Source: Thermococcus thermotolerans
GTDB lineage: Archaea > Methanobacteriota_B > Thermococci > Thermococcales > Thermococcaceae
Length of the DNA: 64,000 nt
NCBI RefSeq assembly: GCF_024707485.1
Contig: NZ_CP102602.1
Location: forward strand, 744,001 to 808,000
Direction of reading: 5' to 3'
Position numbers and translations under genes: made by a program
Part shown: piece by piece, positions 6,157-14,564 of the stretch
Layout: every line of letters begins with the position of its first letter
How positions within the stretch are numbered: the first letter of the stretch is position 1
The notes under the pieces: model-generated
Seen by the model: the letters and a program-made list of their open reading frames with translations, nothing else
What the model was told of the DNA's origin: nothing
Database searches by the model: none

Positions 6157-6618
6157 ATGCGAAGTAATGGACATCTTGACGAGCTGGACAGGATGATACT
6201 CCACATCCTCCAGGAGGACGGAAGGGCCAGCTACTCGGAGATAGCCAGACGTCTAAAGGTTCCGGAATCAACGGTCAGGCTCCGTGTGAAGAAGCTGATG
6301 GAGCGGGGCGTCATCAGGAAGTTTTCAGCCCTCATAAACCCCTTCAAGGCAGGCTACTCGATCGTTGCTTTCATAGCCGTTGATGTCGAGCCAAGCAGGG
6401 TGAAGAAAGCGGCCGAAGAGCTCAGCAAGCTGCCGGAGGTGGACGTCCTAGGCATAGCAACCGGGGCACACGACATACTCATGCAGGTAACAGTTAAGGA
6501 CCTCCAGGAGCTGGAGAGCTTCCTCATTGAGAAGCTCGGAAGAATAGAGGGAATAAGGAGCACGGAGACGTCTATCCTGACGAGCGTGCGGAAGTGGGGC
6601 TACGCGAGGGTGTTCTAA
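6157..6618 (+). CDS. Lrp/AsnC family transcriptional regulator
   Basis: 153 residues. The N-terminal winged helix-turn-helix (about residues 5-55: LDELDRMILHILQEDGRASYSEIARRL and the VPESTVRLRVKKL recognition region) is followed by an alpha/beta RAM-like ligand-binding domain (about 65-145). Lrp-family proteins bind DNA as octamers and sense amino acids. Divergent placement from the aminotransferase/racemase gene suggests that gene as target. Start ATG 6157 has GGTGGGA upstream. Its stop overlaps the convergent M24 gene by 4 bases. Confidence 0.88.
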   Translation: MRSNGHLDELDRMILHILQEDGRASYSEIARRLKVPESTVRLRVKKLMERGVIRKFSALINPFKAGYSIVAFIAVDVEPSRVKKAAEELSKLPEVDVLGIATGAHDILMQVTVKDLQELESFLIEKLGRIEGIRSTETSILTSVRKWGYARVF

Positions 6619-7691
6619 GTGACTTTCTCAAGTCCCGCTTTTTTGACGATGTAGGTGTCTTCGTGCTTTATCGCACCCTCCGGAATCATGAGGGGCGGGT
6701 GTATTATCGTCAGAACCATGTTCTCCTGAACCTTCGTGGTCCTCTGGGGAACGACTATTGTGGTTATTGGCGGCTCCTCGATGAGAAGGCCGACACCGTG
6801 GGTGTAGCCGGCTAGATAGGAGTCGGCGAATCCCTTTTCCCTGAAGAACTCCGCGAGCTTCTTCTCGACGGCGCTCAGCGGGACTCCAACCCTGGTTTCC
6901 TCAAGCGCAATCCTGTAGGCCTCTTCCTTGACCTCAATGGCCCTTCTGACCCTTTGCCCCGGCTCTCCGACGATGAAGGTTCTCGCCATGTTGGCATAAT
7001 AGTGATTCCAGTCCGCTCCAATGACGACGGTAACGACCCCGTTCTCCGGAACCTTCAGGTCGCGGAACGGTTCGGCATGGGCTCTGGGCGTCACAGAAAC
7101 GTAGACCTTGGGATCCTCGCTTCCGTTGAGCATGAGCTCCCTGACCACCTCCGCCGCTATCTCAAGCTCGCTGAGGCCGGGCTTTATAATCTCCTCGGCG
7201 ACCTTCATTCCCTTAACGGCTATATCTCCCGCCTTTCTGATGTTGTCCAGCTCCCACTCGTCCTTTATCATTCTAAGGCCCATTGTGAGATCAAGGATGT
7301 CAACTATCTCCACGGTGGGGTTAAGGCGCTCGAATATTTTGAGGAATATCAGGTAAGCGTCGCGCTCTATGCCGAACTCAAGGCCTACTCTCGTCATTCC
7401 GTTCCCGTGTATCCACGTTACTATGCCCGCCATGAGGTCCTCAACGCGCTGGAACTCCACGACGTTTTCGATCCAGCTCTTTTCCCGGAAAAGCTCCGCT
7501 TCACCTTTGACGACGTAAACCACTGGCTCACCTTCGGCGGAAATTAGGAGGCTCGGCCTGAGCCACTTGGTTCCGGTGAAGTATATGAAGCTGGAGAGGG
7601 TCCTTACGACGGCCCCGTCTATCTCGTTCTCCCTGAGGAGCTCCTGAAAGCGCTCCACCCGTTTTCGAAATACCTTGGGGTCACCCCTCAT
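6615..7691 (-). CDS. M24 (creatinase/prolidase-fold) protein with degenerate metal site
   Basis: 358 residues with the two-domain Xaa-Pro dipeptidase architecture (N-terminal creatinase-like domain 1-130, pita-bread domain 135-358). Against prolidase the expected dinuclear metal ligands are largely lost. The first Asp position is V223, the second is N234 (ANMART where SDITRT is usual), and the third-ligand His is kept (H298 in YTHGVG). The TIEPG glutamate is replaced (TIIHPP, about 330-331), and only the last Glu (E344, HEDT) remains. It may therefore be a metal-free hydrolase, like creatinase, or a non-enzymatic binding protein. It is the third gene of an operon with the cupin and DUF438 genes, under an ATGAC-N4-GTCAT operator. 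The start has GGTGTGAAAG upstream. Confidence 0.75.
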   Translation of the reverse strand: MRGDPKVFRKRVERFQELLRENEIDGAVVRTLSSFIYFTGTKWLRPSLLISAEGEPVVYVVKGEAELFREKSWIENVVEFQRVEDLMAGIVTWIHGNGMTRVGLEFGIERDAYLIFLKIFERLNPTVEIVDILDLTMGLRMIKDEWELDNIRKAGDIAVKGMKVAEEIIKPGLSELEIAAEVVRELMLNGSEDPKVYVSVTPRAHAEPFRDLKVPENGVVTVVIGADWNHYYANMARTFIVGEPGQRVRRAIEVKEEAYRIALEETRVGVPLSAVEKKLAEFFREKGFADSYLAGYTHGVGLLIEEPPITTIVVPQRTTKVQENMVLTIIHPPLMIPEGAIKHEDTYIVKKAGLEKVT

Positions 7692-7694
7692 CTT

Positions 7695-8006
7695 TCACAC
7701 CACCTTGATAACGAGGAATGCCATGTCGAGGCTCCCCCCGTTGGAGACCGCGTGTGGCACTTCCTTCGGTAGGTATACGGCGGTTCCCTTCTTAACCTCT
7801 GCCCTTTCGTCGCCGACCTCCACGATGCCCCTGCCCTTGAGGACATAGATGAACGCATCAACTGGTGTTGTGTGTCTCTTCAGGCTCTCCCCGGGCTTCA
7901 GGGTTATGTAAAATATCTGGGCGCTTTCCTCGTCCATCAGCTTTCTCACGTCCACCCCGTGAGGATTATCAACCCTCTCGGCCTCTTCAACCCCAACGAC
8001 CTTCAT
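7695..8006 (-). CDS. Small cupin-domain protein
   Basis: 103-residue single-domain cupin (beta-barrel). Motif 1 reads PGESLKRHTTPVDAFIYVLKGRG and motif 2 LPKEVPHAVSN. Candidate metal ligands are H in KRHT and H in VPHAV, while the second His of motif 1 is replaced by Asp. It probably binds a divalent metal or a small ligand. I start at ATG 8006, which has GGAGGGACTG upstream, rather than at an in-frame start further out. It lies one base after the DUF438 gene stop and three bases before the M24 gene, so the three are an operon. Confidence 0.8.
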   Translation of the reverse strand: MKVVGVEEAERVDNPHGVDVRKLMDEESAQIFYITLKPGESLKRHTTPVDAFIYVLKGRGIVEVGDERAEVKKGTAVYLPKEVPHAVSNGGSLDMAFLVIKVV

Positions 8007-8007
8007 C

Positions 8008-9348
8008 TCAGTCCCTCCAGTCAAGGAGTCTCTTCTCGCCTTCAATCTTCCTGTAGGGCTCGATGTCCATGGTCATTTCGAGGGTTCCCAGATAGTTGCC
8101 CTCGTTGTCAAAGAGGGGCACGTATTTTATGTAAACATACTTCGGCCCGAGCCTGAGCCAGAAGGTGGCCTCCTTCTTCCTGCCCTCCTTGAAGGCCTTG
8201 AGTATCTTGTTGACGATGTGAACGCTCTTCGGCGGGTGGCAGAGCTGAACTGGCCTCCCGAGCACGGAGGGAGTTCTTGTGAATATCCTCTCGCCCGGCG
8301 AGAAGAAGCGAACGCGGTCGTCCTTGTCGATGAAAGTCACATCAACCGGCAAAGCCTCAAATATCGCTTTCAGCTCTTCCAGGCTAACAAAGCCCGTTCC
8401 AAGGTCGATGTCCCCCTCGCGCTTCAGCTGGCTTTTGTCAAACTCCAGAGGGCGGCCTTTCAGGGCCTGCTGAACTTCCTTCGGAAGGTTCAAAAGTTCC
8501 TCAACGCTCAGTTCAGGGTTGATTTCCCATGGGTGGAGCGGTTTAACGTCCTCGCCAGGATCCCAGGCGGGTGGGTTGACCTTGTAATAGCCAATCTCAT
8601 CCTCCTGCATCCTTATTGCCTTCCACTCGCCCTCACCGAGCAACGCTTTGAGCGTTGGATAATAGATGTTGTTCTCCCTGAAGACCATGTCGCTCAGCGC
8701 GAATGAAGCCTCTCCGGCTTTCTCCTTAAAGCGTTCAACGAACTCTTCCCAGGGCATCTCATTCCTTTTCCTCAGGAGTTCGGCAAGCCTCTTTATCATG
8801 AACCTGATTTCGTCGTGCTTCGTCCAGAGGACGGTCGCTATGGCAGTTAAACCGCGGCGCTCGATGTATGGGAAGGTGAGCATCTCCTCCCGGTTGTAGT
8901 GAGTGAAGCCGACCTTTCTGAGGTTGCCCACTATCTCCTCCAGGACACCGAGGATTTCCTCCCTCATGCGTTCGTCCTTGGTGGTTACCAAAGTCCTCGC
9001 GTAGAGGTTGAGCATCTCGGCGTCCTTCATTATCTCCTTGTTTTCGAGGTAGAGCGTCTTGAGAGGATGCCCGTCCGGAAGGTCTTTCTCCTCAACCTCC
9101 TCCGCCCCGGCAACCGCTTCCCTGAACAGCTCGACGTGCAGGTCGCACATCTTGGCTATATCCTTGGCGGAGATCCCCTCCTTCACGAGCTCCTGCTCTA
9201 TGATGGGAATCTCAAGGGGTGAAATACCGCTCAAAACCTGGCGGAATTCCTCTTTGAGTTTATTCACGTCCTCACCTTCGTGAATCCTGAGGAGGAGTTT
9301 CTTCAGCTGCTCCTTCTTGTATTCGCGATTGTTCAGCAACTCAGTCAT
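8008..9348 (-). CDS. DUF438 / hemerythrin-like / PAS domain protein
   Basis: 446 residues. The N-terminal DUF438 helical region (about 1-75, LLNNREYKKEQLKKLL) is followed by a hemerythrin-like four-helix region (about 80-245) containing FTHYNREEMLTFPYIE and TKHDEIRFMIK, suited to a non-heme diiron site. The C-terminal PAS domain (about 325-440) includes LPVDVTFIDKDDRVRFFS. Such proteins are widely found near hybrid cluster proteins and are thought to sense or bind O2 or NO; the exact role is unproven. Start ATG 9348 is chosen for its GGTGATAAAG. The palindrome at 9362-9375 sits between its TATA-like element (9382-9390) and the start. It is the first gene of the operon with the cupin and M24 genes. 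Confidence 0.8.
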   Translation of the reverse strand: MTELLNNREYKKEQLKKLLLRIHEGEDVNKLKEEFRQVLSGISPLEIPIIEQELVKEGISAKDIAKMCDLHVELFREAVAGAEEVEEKDLPDGHPLKTLYLENKEIMKDAEMLNLYARTLVTTKDERMREEILGVLEEIVGNLRKVGFTHYNREEMLTFPYIERRGLTAIATVLWTKHDEIRFMIKRLAELLRKRNEMPWEEFVERFKEKAGEASFALSDMVFRENNIYYPTLKALLGEGEWKAIRMQEDEIGYYKVNPPAWDPGEDVKPLHPWEINPELSVEELLNLPKEVQQALKGRPLEFDKSQLKREGDIDLGTGFVSLEELKAIFEALPVDVTFIDKDDRVRFFSPGERIFTRTPSVLGRPVQLCHPPKSVHIVNKILKAFKEGRKKEATFWLRLGPKYVYIKYVPLFDNEGNYLGTLEMTMDIEPYRKIEGEKRLLDWRD

Positions 9349-9361
9349 CTTTATCACCTTC

Positions 9362-9375
9362 ATGACGAGTGTCAT
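9362..9375. promoter_or_regulatory. ATGAC-N4-GTCAT operator, DUF438 operon
   Basis: ATGACGAGTGTCAT is a 5+4+5 palindrome. On the minus strand it lies just downstream of the TATA-like CTTAAAAGT (9382-9390), near the expected transcription start, a position typical of repressor sites. The same palindrome occurs at three other promoters between 9.4 and 11.5 kb. Confidence 0.65.
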
Positions 9376-9423
9376 ACTGGGTACTTTTAAGCGTTTCTGG
9401 GCAGATTTGCCCAACAATCTTTA

Positions 9424-9437
9424 TATGTCGCATGTCA
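9424..9437. promoter_or_regulatory. ATGAC-N4-GTCAT operator (one mismatch), DUF2249 gene
   Basis: ATGTCGCATGTCAT matches the palindrome with one change in the left arm. It overlaps the end of the TATA element TTTATAT (9419-9425) of the gene starting at 9460. Confidence 0.6.
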
Positions 9438-9459
9438 TAGAAGGGAGCGGTGATGAAAA

Positions 9460-9936
9460 ATGATGCTCGATGTTCGCGGTTTGAAGCCACCCCAGCCGGC
9501 GGTTATGATCGTAGAGGCCCTTGGAAAGCTTCAGGTGGGAGAGACTCTCGAAGTTATAGGAGACAAGCCCTTCGTTGACATGCTGGGGAGACTTGAGGAG
9601 GCAGGTTATCGGGTTGAACTGAAAGAAGTTGGCGGGGCATTCGTGCTCAGGATAATGAAAACCGAGGACTCCAGGGAGCTTACGATGGAAGTCAAGGAGT
9701 GCGACGATAAGCTGGACGAGATAACGGAGGAAACCAATGTTGGCAAGCTCCTAAAGGCCTATCCGGAATCCCTCAAAATCCTGGTGAAGTACGGATTCTC
9801 GCCCCTTGAGAACCCCGAGATGAGGAAGACCCTCGCAAGGACTATTACTCTGAAGCAGGCGAAGGAGCTCATAGGTATGAGCGACGAGAAGTTCAAAGAG
9901 ATGATGCAGGAGCTTAAGGCCCTGGAAAAGGGCTGA
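9460..9936 (+). CDS. DUF2249 (TusA-like) - DUF1858 two-domain protein
   Basis: 158 residues. Residues 1-70 resemble the TusA/SirA-like DUF2249 fold (LDVRGLKPPQPAVMIVEALGKLQVGETLEVIGD), though the TusA cysteine in the CP motif is absent (PPQP). Residues 85-155 form a DUF1858-type helical domain (TNVGKLLKAYPESLKILVKYGFSPLENP). These domains recur with hemerythrin/DUF438 and hybrid-cluster proteins in anaerobes; biochemical function is unknown. GGTGATG precedes the ATG at 9460 (a second ATG follows at 9463). It is divergent from the DUF438 operon and shares its operator type. Confidence 0.78.
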   Translation: MMLDVRGLKPPQPAVMIVEALGKLQVGETLEVIGDKPFVDMLGRLEEAGYRVELKEVGGAFVLRIMKTEDSRELTMEVKECDDKLDEITEETNVGKLLKAYPESLKILVKYGFSPLENPEMRKTLARTITLKQAKELIGMSDEKFKEMMQELKALEKG

Positions 9937-10026
9937 GTGTTTTCTTTAATTCTTCAGTTCTTGAAACCAATAATTAAATAATTCTGCGATCTAGGAATTC
10001 AGAAAAGAAAAAATGAGGACGGAAGA

Positions 10027-11397
10027 TCAATCAAGCTCCTCCGCGAGGGACGAACTCTCCTCCACGCTTATTCCCTTGCTGAGCATGTCCCTGAGGTCAG
10101 CCTCCGGGTCGCCGGTGAGCCTGAGGTCAAACTGCCTTCTGAGAACGTCAAAGACGTTCGGAGTGAGGAACTCCGGCGGCCTCGGACCAATGTAGATGCC
10201 CTTGATTCCCAGATAGAGGAGCGAGTAGAGTATCGCTATTGCCTTCTGCTCCATCCAGCTCAGGACTATGCTCACCGGCAGGGAGTTCACATCCGTCCCG
10301 AGCTCGTTCGCAAGTGCTATTGCAATCTCGATTATTGAGTAAACGTTGTTGCACTGGCCGAAGTCGAGGAATCTTGGAATGCCTTCGATGGTTCCGTAGT
10401 TCCTCGCGTTGTAGCGGAACTTGCCGCATGCCGCTGAGAGTATCAGCGCATCCTTTGGAATCAGCTCGGTGAGCCTCTCGTAGTAGCCCATGCCCTTGTG
10501 CGGGGTGTCACAACCACCCACGACGAAGATGTGCCTTATCTTGCCCTCCTGGATGAGTTCAATGAGCTTATCCTTCATGGCCAAAACGTTGGTGTGGTGG
10601 AAGCCGGTGAGGAGCTTTCCGCCGTCGTAAGCCTTCATCCTGGGGGTCTCAAGTGCGCGCTTTATGAGCGGCTCGAAGTTGTAGTCCTCTATGTGGGGAA
10701 CCCCCTCAAGGCCCGCTATTCCAACGGTGAAGATTCTGTCGGCGTAAGCCTTCGCCGGCTGCTGGACACAGTTGCTCGTGCCAAGAATAACGCCCGGGAA
10801 CTCCGCGAATTCCTTCTTCTGGTAGAGCCACGAGCCTCCCCAGTTGCCGTAGAGGGCTTTGAACTTCCTCAGCTCGGGGTATGCATGTGCTGGAAACATC
10901 TCCGCGTGGGTATAAACTTTAAGCTCCTCCTCAAGGCCCATCTCCTCGATCTGCCTGAGGAGTTCATACAGAGCCTTGTAGCTGTGGCCGGTAACGAGTA
11001 TGCCCCTTCCTTCCGCAGTTCCGGTCGGGACTTCAACGGGCTCGGGTCTGCCGAAGGTCTCAACGTAAGCTCTGTCGAGGAGCTTCATCGCCTCAAGGTG
11101 AACCCTTCCGTTCTCAAGGATGAGCTCCAGAAACCTGTTTTTATCAAAGTTGACGTTGGTGAGCGTCGAATAAAGGGCCTCCGCCAAGAAGTGGCCTATC
11201 CTCGGGTCGTCATAGCCGACCTCAAGGGCATGGTAGTAGTAGGCCGAGGTTCCCTTTATGCCGTAGAGCAGGGCCTCCTGGAGCGAGTTGAGGTCCGGGT
11301 CTTTGCCGCAGACTCCCCTTATAGTACATCCTCCCGCCAAACTCATCGAACACTGGTTGCAGAGCATATCAAACGCTTCCGGAACGCGTATCGCCAT
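10027..11397 (-). CDS. hcp: Hybrid cluster protein (hydroxylamine reductase / NO-detoxifying Hcp)
   Basis: 456-residue cytoplasmic Fe-S protein of the short, archaeal-type Hcp class. The N-terminal cluster motif is CNQCSMSLAGGCTIRGVCG (residues 12-30). Hybrid-cluster ligands are visible further on: the GTSNCVQQP Cys, the VGGCDTPHKGMGYY Cys, SAACGKFRYN, and DFGQCNNVYS. Hcp reduces hydroxylamine in vitro and is linked to NO detoxification in vivo. The start ATG 11397 follows GGAGGTTGGTGG. The promoter (TATA-like element about 11440-11447, minus strand) carries a perfect operator palindrome at 11418-11431. It is divergent from the HTH regulator gene. Confidence 0.9.
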   Translation of the reverse strand: MAIRVPEAFDMLCNQCSMSLAGGCTIRGVCGKDPDLNSLQEALLYGIKGTSAYYYHALEVGYDDPRIGHFLAEALYSTLTNVNFDKNRFLELILENGRVHLEAMKLLDRAYVETFGRPEPVEVPTGTAEGRGILVTGHSYKALYELLRQIEEMGLEEELKVYTHAEMFPAHAYPELRKFKALYGNWGGSWLYQKKEFAEFPGVILGTSNCVQQPAKAYADRIFTVGIAGLEGVPHIEDYNFEPLIKRALETPRMKAYDGGKLLTGFHHTNVLAMKDKLIELIQEGKIRHIFVVGGCDTPHKGMGYYERLTELIPKDALILSAACGKFRYNARNYGTIEGIPRFLDFGQCNNVYSIIEIAIALANELGTDVNSLPVSIVLSWMEQKAIAILYSLLYLGIKGIYIGPRPPEFLTPNVFDVLRRQFDLRLTGDPEADLRDMLSKGISVEESSSLAEELD

Positions 11398-11417
11398 ATC
11401 CACCAACCTCCATTTTT

Positions 11418-11431
11418 ATGACACGTGTCAT
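11418..11431. promoter_or_regulatory. Perfect ATGACAC/GTGTCAT operator, hcp promoter
   Basis: ATGACACGTGTCAT is a perfect 14-base palindrome; with one flanking base pair it is 16 bases (11417-11432). It sits 20 bases upstream of the hcp start, about where transcription would begin given the TATA-like element at 11440-11447. Confidence 0.7.
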
Positions 11432-11497
11432 ATCCTTCGATTATAGATGAAGTGACCTTCATAAAAGTCTTGCGGTTTCTTAACCTAAAGCGGCCAC

Positions 11498-11511
11498 ATG
11501 ACTTATGTCAT
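11498..11511. promoter_or_regulatory. ATGAC-N4-GTCAT operator upstream of the HTH regulator
   Basis: ATGACTTATGTCAT lies about 30 bases upstream of the TATA element TTTAAATAT (11542-11550) of the regulator gene. A further half-site (GCGTCAT, 11556-11562) lies between that TATA box and the start codon, suggesting autoregulation. Confidence 0.6.
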
Positions 11512-11572
11512 ATCAAAACCCCGAGGGGCTTGGCAGAAAGGTTTAAATATTCCACGCGTCATAAAGGATATC

Positions 11573-11959
11573 ATGAAGACCAACGCCTTTGAAGTGGCCT
11601 CGCGCTACGTGTATCCCTCACTCAGGCGGAGGCTCGTTGAGATACTCTACGAAAACGGCCTGAAGCAGACTGAGATAGCTGAGCTTCTCCACATAACCCA
11701 GTCGGCTGTTTCCCGCTATCTTCGGATGGACAGGGGCGCGTTGATGGACGTTTCCAGCTATCCCGACATAGAGGAGGAACTCCAGTCCCTCGCCCGGAAT
11801 ATAGTCGAGAAGAAGCCGGGTGAATACGAGATACACCGGAGAATAGTGGAGATATCTCTGGAGATGCTCGGAAAAGGATACGTCTGCTCCATCCATTCCA
11901 AAGTTGACCCCGAGGTCGACCCGGGGGAGTGCAATATCTGCCTAGAACTTTTCGGATGA
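11573..11959 (+). CDS. HTH regulator with C-terminal Cys/His cluster, probable sensor of the hcp regulon
   Basis: 128 residues. A helix-turn-helix occupies about residues 15-55 (LVEILYENGLKQTEIAELLHITQSAVSRYL), followed by a helical linker and a C-terminal cluster C105-x2-H108-x11-C120-x2-C123 that could bind an Fe-S cluster or zinc. This suits a redox or NO sensor. I place the start at ATG 11573 because an upstream in-frame ATG at 11498 lies inside the operator palindrome and before the TATA box. Promoter geometry (TATA 11542-11550) implies a leaderless or nearly leaderless mRNA. That it is the repressor of the shared palindrome is inferred from proximity, and its target sites are not proven. 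Confidence 0.8.
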   Translation: MKTNAFEVASRYVYPSLRRRLVEILYENGLKQTEIAELLHITQSAVSRYLRMDRGALMDVSSYPDIEEELQSLARNIVEKKPGEYEIHRRIVEISLEMLGKGYVCSIHSKVDPEVDPGECNICLELFG

Positions 11960-12031: not shown

Positions 12032-12844
12032 ATGAAAAGAGCGCTTGTAACCCTCACCCCGCCCGAAAGCAAGAGACTCATCGCAAAGGCCGTCGTTGCC
12101 ATGCCCGAAGTTCAGCACGCCCTCAAACATGGCTTCGTCTATATAGCCACCGGCACAACAGCGGCCTATGTAGCCGAGGAAATACTCGGGGAAAAGATTG
12201 AGAAGGAGAAATGGACCGTCGGCGTTATAAGCAAGGGGCGAACGTGCGTCACACCCAAACAGACGTGGCCCAAGCACCTAGTCCTCTACAAGGGCGAGCC
12301 CTTCGACGATCCGCTTGAAGCCCTCAAGAGGATGGGGCCGAAAGACGTCTTCATAAAAGGCGCCAACGCGATAGACATAAACTGGAACGTGGCAGTTTTT
12401 GCCGCCGCCCCTGACGGCGGGACGATAGGGAAGACCTTTGGCTGGACTATAACCAAGGGGGTCTTCACGATAACACCGGTAAGCCTTGAGAAGTTTGTGC
12501 CGACGCCGGTCGAGGAGAGCGCCAAGCTCACCGGCATCTACTCCTTCGACTGGGGAACCGGCCTTTACTCCGCACTCGTGCCGATACCCCACTCCCACCC
12601 GGTTACCGAGGTGGAAGCCTACAGGATTCTGGCGGACGTGGAGGCGATTCCGATAGCGGCAGGCGGAGCGGGCGGAGCTGAAGGAAGCGTCACCCTCGTC
12701 CTTGAGGGGGACGACGAGGCAATGGAGAGGGCGAAGGAGATAACCAAAGCAGTCAAAGGCGAGCCCTACCTCAAGCCGTACACCGAGGACTGCTCTGTGT
12801 GTCCGTTCGCAAAGATATGTGGCCTCGGGAGTGGCGCTTTCTGA
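12032..12844 (+). CDS. Conserved archaeal protein of unknown function with C-terminal cysteine motif
   Basis: Not recognised. 270 residues, soluble and alpha/beta in appearance, with Gly-rich stretches (IATGTTAAYVAEEILG, AAGGAGGAEGSVTLVLEG) that could bind a nucleotide or phosphate. A C-terminal EDCSVCPFAKICGLG motif (C-x2-C-x5-C) could ligate an Fe-S cluster or zinc. Start ATG 12032 is chosen because GGAGGTGAT precedes it; an in-frame ATG at 12017 overlaps that site. It is followed 10 bases later by the His-pair membrane protein, so the two are probably an operon. A TATA-like GGTTTAATACC lies at 11990-12000. Confidence 0.75.
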   Translation: MKRALVTLTPPESKRLIAKAVVAMPEVQHALKHGFVYIATGTTAAYVAEEILGEKIEKEKWTVGVISKGRTCVTPKQTWPKHLVLYKGEPFDDPLEALKRMGPKDVFIKGANAIDINWNVAVFAAAPDGGTIGKTFGWTITKGVFTITPVSLEKFVPTPVEESAKLTGIYSFDWGTGLYSALVPIPHSHPVTEVEAYRILADVEAIPIAAGGAGGAEGSVTLVLEGDDEAMERAKEITKAVKGEPYLKPYTEDCSVCPFAKICGLGSGAF

Positions 12845-12854
12845 GGTGGTGCGG

Positions 12855-13424
12855 GTGAAGCGGGTTCTCGTTTTCTTTCTTTTGATCATTCTGATGGCTC
12901 CCCTTGTAATGGCGGATGACAACGGCGAGGAAAACGAGTACGAAGCAGGCTACGGCGGACTCGCGGCTCTTGGAGTGGGCCTTATTGCTGCCGGCGTCGT
13001 CTACTACTCCCTGACAAAGAGAAAGCTCGTCATAGTGCACAAGAAGTCCAGTGAGTGGGGCTTTGAGATAAGGCCGGAGCACCCGTACATGACGATATTT
13101 GGCCCAGTGTATCCCCTCACCATTCACCACGTCCTCACCATAACGGGAACGGCTCTCGTTTTCGTCCACTTCTTCTCATGCGACAACTACTCGGGGCTCA
13201 CGGGAGGCACGGGGCTCGCGATGGGCATCGTACTGGTTCTGCTGAACCTGAACGGGTTCATCGGCAGGTACATACATGGAAAGGTTCTCCTCGCGGCGAA
13301 GAAGCACGACAGGAAAATGGCAAAGAAGTTCGTGGGCATACTGGGCCACTGGAAAAAAGTCCACATAGCCCTGGCCATCCTGTTCGTCATTCTGCTGGCC
13401 ATTCACCTCGCCACTGGCGATTAG
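12855..13424 (+). CDS. Four-helix membrane protein with two His-x13-His pairs, candidate b-type cytochrome
   Basis: 189 residues from GTG 12855, which has GAGGTGGT upstream. A signal peptide or first helix (KRVLVFFLLIILMAPLVMA) is followed by four predicted membrane helices (about 32-52, 88-108, 118-140, 166-187). Two helices each carry histidines 14 residues apart: H91/H105 and H170/H184. That spacing is the classic bis-His heme arrangement of diheme b-type cytochromes and ferric-reductase-like membrane proteins. No family is named from sequence here. Thermococcales are generally regarded as lacking heme synthesis, which makes the motif noteworthy or coincidental. Operonic with the preceding gene. 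Confidence 0.7.
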   Translation: MKRVLVFFLLIILMAPLVMADDNGEENEYEAGYGGLAALGVGLIAAGVVYYSLTKRKLVIVHKKSSEWGFEIRPEHPYMTIFGPVYPLTIHHVLTITGTALVFVHFFSCDNYSGLTGGTGLAMGIVLVLLNLNGFIGRYIHGKVLLAAKKHDRKMAKKFVGILGHWKKVHIALAILFVILLAIHLATGD

Positions 13425-13496
13425 TATCCCATGAACTCTTTTTCAAAAATTTCTTTTTAAATCCCCTTCCTTCTCTTTTCTAACGGGGGTGAGAGA

Positions 13497-13844
13497 ATGG
13501 ACGAGCTTGAGATGATAAGGAGAAAAAAGATGCTAGAACTCATGAAGAGGGCCGGCATGATAGAGGTCAAGCCAAAGAGAAAGGTAGTCATCGAGGTCAT
13601 AACGTCGCCCGGCTGTCCGTACTGCCCGATAGCCTGGGCAATGGCTCAGGAGCTTGAGAGAAAATACGAGGGCGTCATAGCGAGGGAACTGAGCGTGGCC
13701 ACTCCCGAAGGCCAGAGGAAGGCCATGGAGCACAACATAATGGGAACCCCCACGATAATCATAGACAACAGGGTGGAGTTCATAGGGGTTCCGAACTTCG
13801 CCGAATTCGAGAGAAGGGTGAGGGAAAAGCTCGGTTTAGGGTGA
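13497..13844 (+). CDS. Glutaredoxin/thioredoxin-like protein
   Basis: 115-residue thioredoxin-fold protein with a glutaredoxin-type C40-P-Y-C43 active site after a charged N-terminal helix of about 30 residues. The cis-proline is in MGTPTIII (about residue 85). It has no signal peptide, so it is a cytoplasmic thiol-disulfide oxidoreductase. Start has GGGGGTGAGAG upstream; the TATA-like TTTTTAAAT is at 13454-13462. It is convergent with and overlaps the ccdA-like gene by 9 bases. The neighbouring CcdA and surface thioredoxin suggest a shared thiol relay. Confidence 0.85.
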   Translation: MDELEMIRRKKMLELMKRAGMIEVKPKRKVVIEVITSPGCPYCPIAWAMAQELERKYEGVIARELSVATPEGQRKAMEHNIMGTPTIIIDNRVEFIGVPNFAEFERRVREKLGLG

Positions 13845-14564
13845 GGCACCCGTAAGAACCCAGACCCCTATAGCTATCAGCAGCAGCCCGGCTATGACCG
13901 AGAGCTCCCTGCTGTGCCGCACCATCGCCTGGGAGAAGCGCTTGCTCTCAGTGACGCTCCCCATGGCGAGCAGTATGACGACCAGGGGAAGCACAAACAC
14001 CAAGTTGTAGAGTGCCAGGAGGAGGAACGCGAGGGCCTGGCCGCCTTTGGAGATTATTATCGCGTACACGAGGTAGCTTCCAGCCGAGCACGGGAGGAGG
14101 GTTGTTGAGACTATAACCCCGAGCGTAAAAGCCCCAATTGCAGTTGCGTCGCTGCTGAATATTTTCCTCCTGATTTTGCTTTTGTCTCCGACGCGGGATT
14201 TTTCCATCAGACCTGTGGCTAGGGTGTAAGCACCGAATAATATTGCCGCAACTCCAGCGACCCAGAGGGGCAGATAACCGGCGAAGTACAGTAGTCCGAC
14301 GCCAAGGAGGTAGTATGATATGTAAACCGCGGCTATGAATGTGGCCCCTATGAAATACAGCCTCTTCTTTGATACCTCCCTGACGGAGAGTGCTATGAGG
14401 AGCATGGTGTATATGACGAAGGTGCACGGGTTTATCGAGTCGCTCATGGCCAGGGCGAAGAACTTGGGTATAAAGTCCACCATACCCAGCGCCCACAGCG
14501 CAAGGGAACTCACCCCGAAGGATGCCAGAAGAATTATTGCCAGCCCCTTTATCTCACTCCTCAT
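13836..14564 (-). CDS. ccdA: CcdA-like thiol-disulfide membrane transporter
   Basis: 242-residue membrane protein with six or seven predicted helices. The two intramembrane cysteines expected of CcdA/DsbD are present in NPCTF (C47) and LLPCSAGSY (C159). The family passes reducing equivalents from cytoplasmic thioredoxin to extracytoplasmic thiol proteins. It is next to a cytoplasmic glutaredoxin-like gene on one side and an exported thioredoxin-like gene on the other, which supports that role. The start lacks a strong ribosome binding site. Confidence 0.85.
   Translation of the reverse strand: MRSEIKGLAIILLASFGVSSLALWALGMVDFIPKFFALAMSDSINPCTFVIYTMLLIALSVREVSKKRLYFIGATFIAAVYISYYLLGVGLLYFAGYLPLWVAGVAAILFGAYTLATGLMEKSRVGDKSKIRRKIFSSDATAIGAFTLGVIVSTTLLPCSAGSYLVYAIIISKGGQALAFLLLALYNLVFVLPLVVILLAMGSVTESKRFSQAMVRHSRELSVIAGLLLIAIGVWVLTGASP

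Follow-up and report, generated by a model that had tools for sequence, protein, structure and literature searches.

What controls the gene for hybrid cluster protein (hcp) in Thermococcus thermotolerans, through which DNA sites, and in answer to which signal? In the window analysed here, a 64,000-nucleotide stretch of the genome, hcp adjoins the gene for a small helix-turn-helix (HTH) protein and lies close to a DUF438-cupin-M24 operon and a TusA-DUF1858 gene, with similar palindromes at their promoters. The features concerned, by position in the window, are as follows.

6615–7691, minus strand: M24 peptidase-family gene of the DUF438 operon (Pfam)
7695–8006, minus strand: cupin gene of the DUF438 operon (Pfam)
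8008–9348, minus strand: gene for a DUF438-hemerythrin-PAS protein (Pfam)
9362–9375, minus strand: predicted operator of the DUF438-cupin-M24 operon, between TATA (9384–9391) and start codon
9398–9413, no strand assigned: second dyad, TGGGCAGATTTGCCCA (TGGGCA-N4-TGCCCA, perfect arms), midway between the divergent DUF438 and TusA promoters
9425–9438, plus strand: predicted TusA-DUF1858 operator, ATGTCGCATGTCAT, overlapping TATA (9420–9427)
9460–9936, plus strand: TusA/DUF2249-DUF1858 gene (Pfam)
10027–11397, minus strand: hcp, hybrid cluster protein, 456 aa (TIGR01703; PDB match 7e0l)
11418–11431, minus strand: predicted hcp operator, ATGACACGTGTCAT, between the TATA region and the start codon (38/41 loci)
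11498–11511, plus strand: dyad ATGACTTATGTCAT, between regulator and hcp, upstream of the regulator TATA (exact copy; many loci)
11549–11562, plus strand: predicted autoregulatory operator, a degenerate ATTCC arm and a GTCAT arm (58/59 orthologues)
11573–11959, plus strand: regulator gene, 128-aa HTH protein (orthologues, invariant ligand residues, AF2 model)

Palindromes at the promoters around hcp

The gene identities given in the original prediction hold by Pfam and NCBIfam profile scores. Hcp scores 641.8 bits against TIGR01703 (cut-off 360.8), which identifies it as a hybrid cluster protein, and its closest PDB structure, 7e0l, belongs to class III (PMC10502027). The nearest solved structure to the DUF438 protein is 3cax, P. 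furiosus PF0695. Downstream of the regulator (12032–14564) lie genes for a 270-aa protein with no Pfam match, a thioredoxin-like protein and a membrane protein, which are conserved and carry no operators. Several Thermococcus genomes also have, between hcp and the TusA gene, genes of a MGTTYY(V/T)VAVFDK... type with no Pfam match (L053 13033–13830, L057 6892–7731, L062 13029–13868, L128 2201–2995), as if this spot were an insertion site.

Of the four palindromes reported near hcp, a scan of the window found three to be exact copies of ATGACNNNNGTCAT (ATGAC-N4-GTCAT), at 9362, 11418 and 11498, while the fourth has a single mismatch and begins at 9425 rather than at the 9424 first given. The exact copies are the only three in the whole genome (2,070,864 bases), and all lie inside 2.2 kb. 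Base composition predicts 1.7 exact palindromes per genome by chance and 0.0018 per 2,150 bp, and the probability of three within 2,150 bp is ~1e-9. Allowing one mismatch yields 79 genome matches, among them a copy at 8063 that plainly sits inside DUF438 coding sequence, at the same coding position in relatives, and is not counted in the regulon; ATGTCCATNGTCAT, close to where DUF438 ends, is likewise a conserved coding stretch and hence no operator. Such matches are what one would expect if the palindromes had arisen by chance or as coding repeats and regulated nothing, but the clustering of the exact copies, together with their conservation at orthologous promoters in two phyla (see below), reduces that explanation to a negligible one.

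The predicted operators overlap or abut TATA at the TusA gene and the regulator, and lie between TATA and the start codon at DUF438 and hcp. At the regulator promoter TATA occupies 11542–11549, and the operator abuts it from 11549, with its GTCAT arm at 11558–11562. Being at or downstream of TATA, bound sites should block TBP/TFB or polymerase, as known archaeal repressors do, and it is from this geometry that we infer repression by the regulator. The earlier suggestion that the site positions fit repression therefore stands for these operators; it does not extend to the dyad at 11498, which lies upstream of the regulator TATA and does not fit simple occlusion. As the neighbourhood scan found this dyad conserved in many loci, the regulator might instead be mainly an activator, or dual in function, using the 11498 dyad to stimulate its own gene or hcp. 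We regard this as improbable, given that the other operators lie where binding should block transcription.

Two further elements were seen in these intergenic regions. Elsewhere in the genome the dyad TGGGCAGATTTGCCCA has no counterpart, whether exact or with one mismatch. Its arms covary in relatives, TGGGCA/TGCCCA becoming TGGACA/TGTCCA, which suggests another regulator, and its DUF438-side half persists in a genome that has lost the HTH protein (G017, discussed below). On this comparison it probably belongs to another factor. The element GGTTAAKAAACC at 11474–11485, just upstream of the hcp BRE/TATA, is conserved in 26 of the 41 loci scanned and is possibly a site for another factor.

Conservation and coupled loss of operator and regulator

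Full-length regulator orthologues are present in 69 of 94 Thermococcales genomes, and 60 regulator neighbourhoods were retrieved from Thermococcales and scanned for the palindrome. The dyad consensus over 123 sites is ATGACAYRTGTCAT, placed at or just downstream of TATA at hcp, at DUF438-hemerythrin-PAS (or a flavodiiron gene leading it), at TusA-DUF1858 and at the regulator. Of the 41 loci with an hcp match, 38 have an exact palindrome upstream of that gene, and the other three look like remnants or disrupted genes; the TusA-DUF1858 promoter region has an exact copy in 35/37 loci. DUF438 is directly preceded by one in 39/48 loci; eight of the remaining nine have a flavodiiron gene ahead of DUF438, and it is this gene that bears the operator. 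This close flavodiiron subtype was found in 16 genomes, with an exact palindrome just upstream in 15, the 16th lying at a contig end. The ‘half-site’ noted at the start of the regulator proved to be real: in 58 of 59 orthologues the autosite TTAAATATTCCRCNCGTCATA, a degenerate arm plus GTCAT, abuts TATA and is separated from the start codon by 9–14 bp, and it approaches a full palindrome in some other genera. Searching 59 genomes with ATGACNNNTGTCATA gave more than 100 matches (symmetric sites counted once per strand), compared with two for the reversed control.

Shared ancestry can by itself preserve similar DNA in linked neighbourhoods, and targets lying away from the regulator are therefore the stronger evidence. 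Pyrococcus-like genomes have the palindrome ahead of DUF438 genes (DUF438-M24) far from the regulator (L115, L118, L120, L125) and, at L114, ahead of an hcp remote from it, and unlinked regulators retain their own TATA-abutting site (L090, L093, L094). G093 has, on a separate contig, a flavodiiron gene of 38% identity to the operon type (L161), where TATA is followed in turn by operator, RBS and ATG. The expectation that the palindrome would recur at orthologous promoters is thus borne out at essentially every intact one across Thermococcales, unlinked targets included. Two more genes are candidate targets of the regulon, namely an MFS transporter gene preceded by a palindrome with TATA and RBS (G084; L164 2229), and a ferritin/rubrerythrin-like gene with a palindrome 42 bp upstream, divergent from a hydrogenase maturation protease gene (G009; L119 4199).

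Some other copies have no such setting. Two Pyrococcus-like genomes have an exact intergenic palindrome upstream of an Orc1/Cdc6 gene (L113 4057, L116 3689), with no convincing target. Those in L162, L163 and L165 were attributed to coding sequence or to chance, and that in L124 was discounted as it overlaps an open reading frame.

The same pairing extends to Thermoproteota. In five loci (L166–L170), regulator relatives of 52–62% identity are divergent from hcp with an exact palindrome in between; another (L050) has a DUF438 gene preceded by ATGACACGCGTCAT as well as an auto-site that abuts TATA, and two more (L172, L173) have palindromes at the regulator and at an M24 gene. In G115 and G116 the exact palindrome is confined to these regulator and target loci. 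More distant regulator relatives beside DUF438 (L171, L174, L175) have no exact palindrome. Some of these Thermoproteota records are metagenome-assembled, and single contigs could be misbinned, though the set as a whole is consistent.

Regulator and targets are also lost together. The near-complete genomes comprise 62 with the regulator, of which 60 have DUF438, and 12 without it, of which one does (Fisher P 2e-10, phylogeny ignored); for hcp the figures are 43/62 and 0/12 (Fisher P 6e-6, again ignoring phylogeny). Two assemblies, G052 and G066, have hcp without a full regulator, and in both a contig ends beside hcp. The sole DUF438 exception, G017, keeps DUF438-M24 while regulator, TusA gene and hcp are gone; its DUF438 promoter has an intact TATA and RBS and a decayed operator (AATGTGACTGTGAAGG, compared with ATGACANNTGTCATGAAGG in relatives). 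Genomes without the regulator contain no palindrome sites beyond chance. In G011 and G027, where broken regulator remnants persist (L111, L112) and hcp, DUF438 and operators are all missing, the circuit was lost as one unit.

Palindromes alone do not name their protein, and a different factor could bind the dyads, with the HTH gene merely one of its targets. However, the regulator is the one gene with an operator in nearly every locus, unlinked and Thermoproteota loci included. Because regulator-less genomes are without operators, and G017 lost its operator along with the regulator, we set this possibility aside as very unlikely. The comparison across Thermococcales lends strong support to the small HTH protein as the predicted regulator of the palindrome, as originally proposed, and the regulon, its operator, autoregulation and the identity of the regulator all appear well supported at the sequence level.

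The regulator and known families

The regulator matches Pfam and NCBIfam models over a short HTH only. Its AF2 model is all helical (pLDDT 85.7), so it is no winged helix, and a PDB fold search produced no structural match along its full length (best E 0.6). Four residues, C105, H108, C120 and C123 (Cx2H-x11-Cx2C), are invariant in 61/61 orthologues and in the Thermoproteota relatives. This site was absent from the original prediction, as were the flavodiiron link, the cross-phylum link and the dyad at 9398–9413.

The regulator falls outside the HcpR, NsrR, NorR and ArsR/SmtB families. A fragment scores 26.9 against HTH_5 (Pfam cut-off 22), but the ArsR/SmtB model NF033788 reaches 22.1 bits against a cut-off of 55, and the predicted fold is without strands. 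For the XRE-like superfamily, HTH_3 scores 23.9 bits (cut-off 23) over 26 residues only. A scan of viral contigs gave no relatives.

Bacterial regulons offer the closest functional parallels. In anaerobic bacteria HcpR, of the Crp/Fnr family, is encoded beside hcp and controls it along with some redox and hemerythrin-like genes (PMC1274295). Here too a predicted dedicated regulator adjoins hcp and the target set is similar, but the archaeal protein is not Crp/Fnr-like (128 aa, all helical, with no cyclic-nucleotide-binding domain by Pfam or NCBIfam), and its operator differs in sequence and position. Target functions also overlap with those of NsrR (Rrf2) and NorR, namely Hcp, a hemerythrin-type repair protein and a flavodiiron NO reductase. 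In contrast to NsrR, the regulator gives no Rrf2 match in Pfam or NCBIfam and its model has no beta-wing; in contrast to NorR, its 128 aa contain neither GAF nor sigma54-interaction AAA+ domains. As the defining domains were looked for and found absent, the regulator is no member of NsrR or HcpR; the circuit would work like an NsrR/HcpR regulon, under a different regulator.

Distant archaeal HTH proteins of ~300 aa, which may be ThiR-like, share a homologous HTH and a similar CxxH...CxxC segment. They differ in having, often, an extra CxxC and a large C-terminal domain, and no regulon operator was seen with the relatives examined. The segment is probably ancestral, judging from its distribution. 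Since it also occurs in these larger proteins, the Cx2H-x11-Cx2C site could be structural zinc rather than a sensor. COG2522 is a family name that may apply to the regulator. The literature searched, with many subscription papers outside its reach, held no account of the regulator, of archaeal hcp regulation, of COG2522 or of PF0695.

Proposed mechanism and signal

We consider an autoregulated repressor regulon, with a dyad-binding protein whose metal site would let it be released by NO or a related nitrogen species, to be the best explanation, and a probable one. The 128-aa HTH protein would bind ATGACAYRTGTCAT, presumably as a dimer, and cover the stretch that runs from TATA to the transcription start. 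This would repress hcp, the TusA-DUF1858 gene, the DUF438-hemerythrin/cupin/M24 operon (flavodiiron-headed in some relatives) and the regulator gene itself. The Cx2H-x11-Cx2C site may hold a metal, either zinc or an Fe-S cluster, and this site would react with NO or a related nitrogen species; the repressor would be released, and detoxification or repair of the Hcp, flavodiiron and hemerythrin types would be switched on. Of these steps, the metal, the signal and the release are our conjecture.

The gene content points to NO or hydroxylamine as the likely signal, and less so to O2. Hcp and a hemerythrin protein, joined in relatives by a flavodiiron protein, lie under one operator, a target set like that of the bacterial NO regulons. 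The closest structure to this flavodiiron protein is the Moorella NO reductase 1ycf, and its presence under the same operator in relatives strengthens the originally suggested link to NO. Both flavodiiron proteins and hemerythrins can act on O2 as well, and because the former can be O2 reductases, oxygen is the main rival signal. The same repressor, operator and targets would then answer to oxygen or reactive oxygen and protect a strict anaerobe, the flavodiiron protein reducing O2 while Hcp and hemerythrin serve in repair or scavenging. The F420H2 oxidase FprA does rank among the flavodiiron protein's best structural matches, and MsrA/B and ferritin-like genes occur near some loci or sites. 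However, the best match remains an NO reductase, and bacterial Hcp is tied to NO or hydroxylamine. Moreover, most genomes, whether or not they have the regulator, have another flavodiiron gene (~34% identity), which in T. thermotolerans has no exact operator. On balance oxygen seems to us unlikely as the signal.

Returning to NO, we propose tentatively, and with slightly less than even confidence, that the regulator may represent a widespread archaeal family of XRE-like HTH repressors whose Cx2H-x11-Cx2C metal or Fe-S sensor would sense NO directly, controlling Hcp, flavodiiron and hemerythrin proteins in two phyla independently of NsrR, NorR and HcpR. Within the literature searched, the candidate regulator would be the first one identified for hcp in archaea, and would amount to convergence with bacteria, which met this need through unrelated regulators. 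What archaeal Hcp does physiologically is still an open question (PMC10210160). The candidate regulator, together with an exact operator and a fixed set of targets, would make that function directly testable in genetically tractable Thermococcales.
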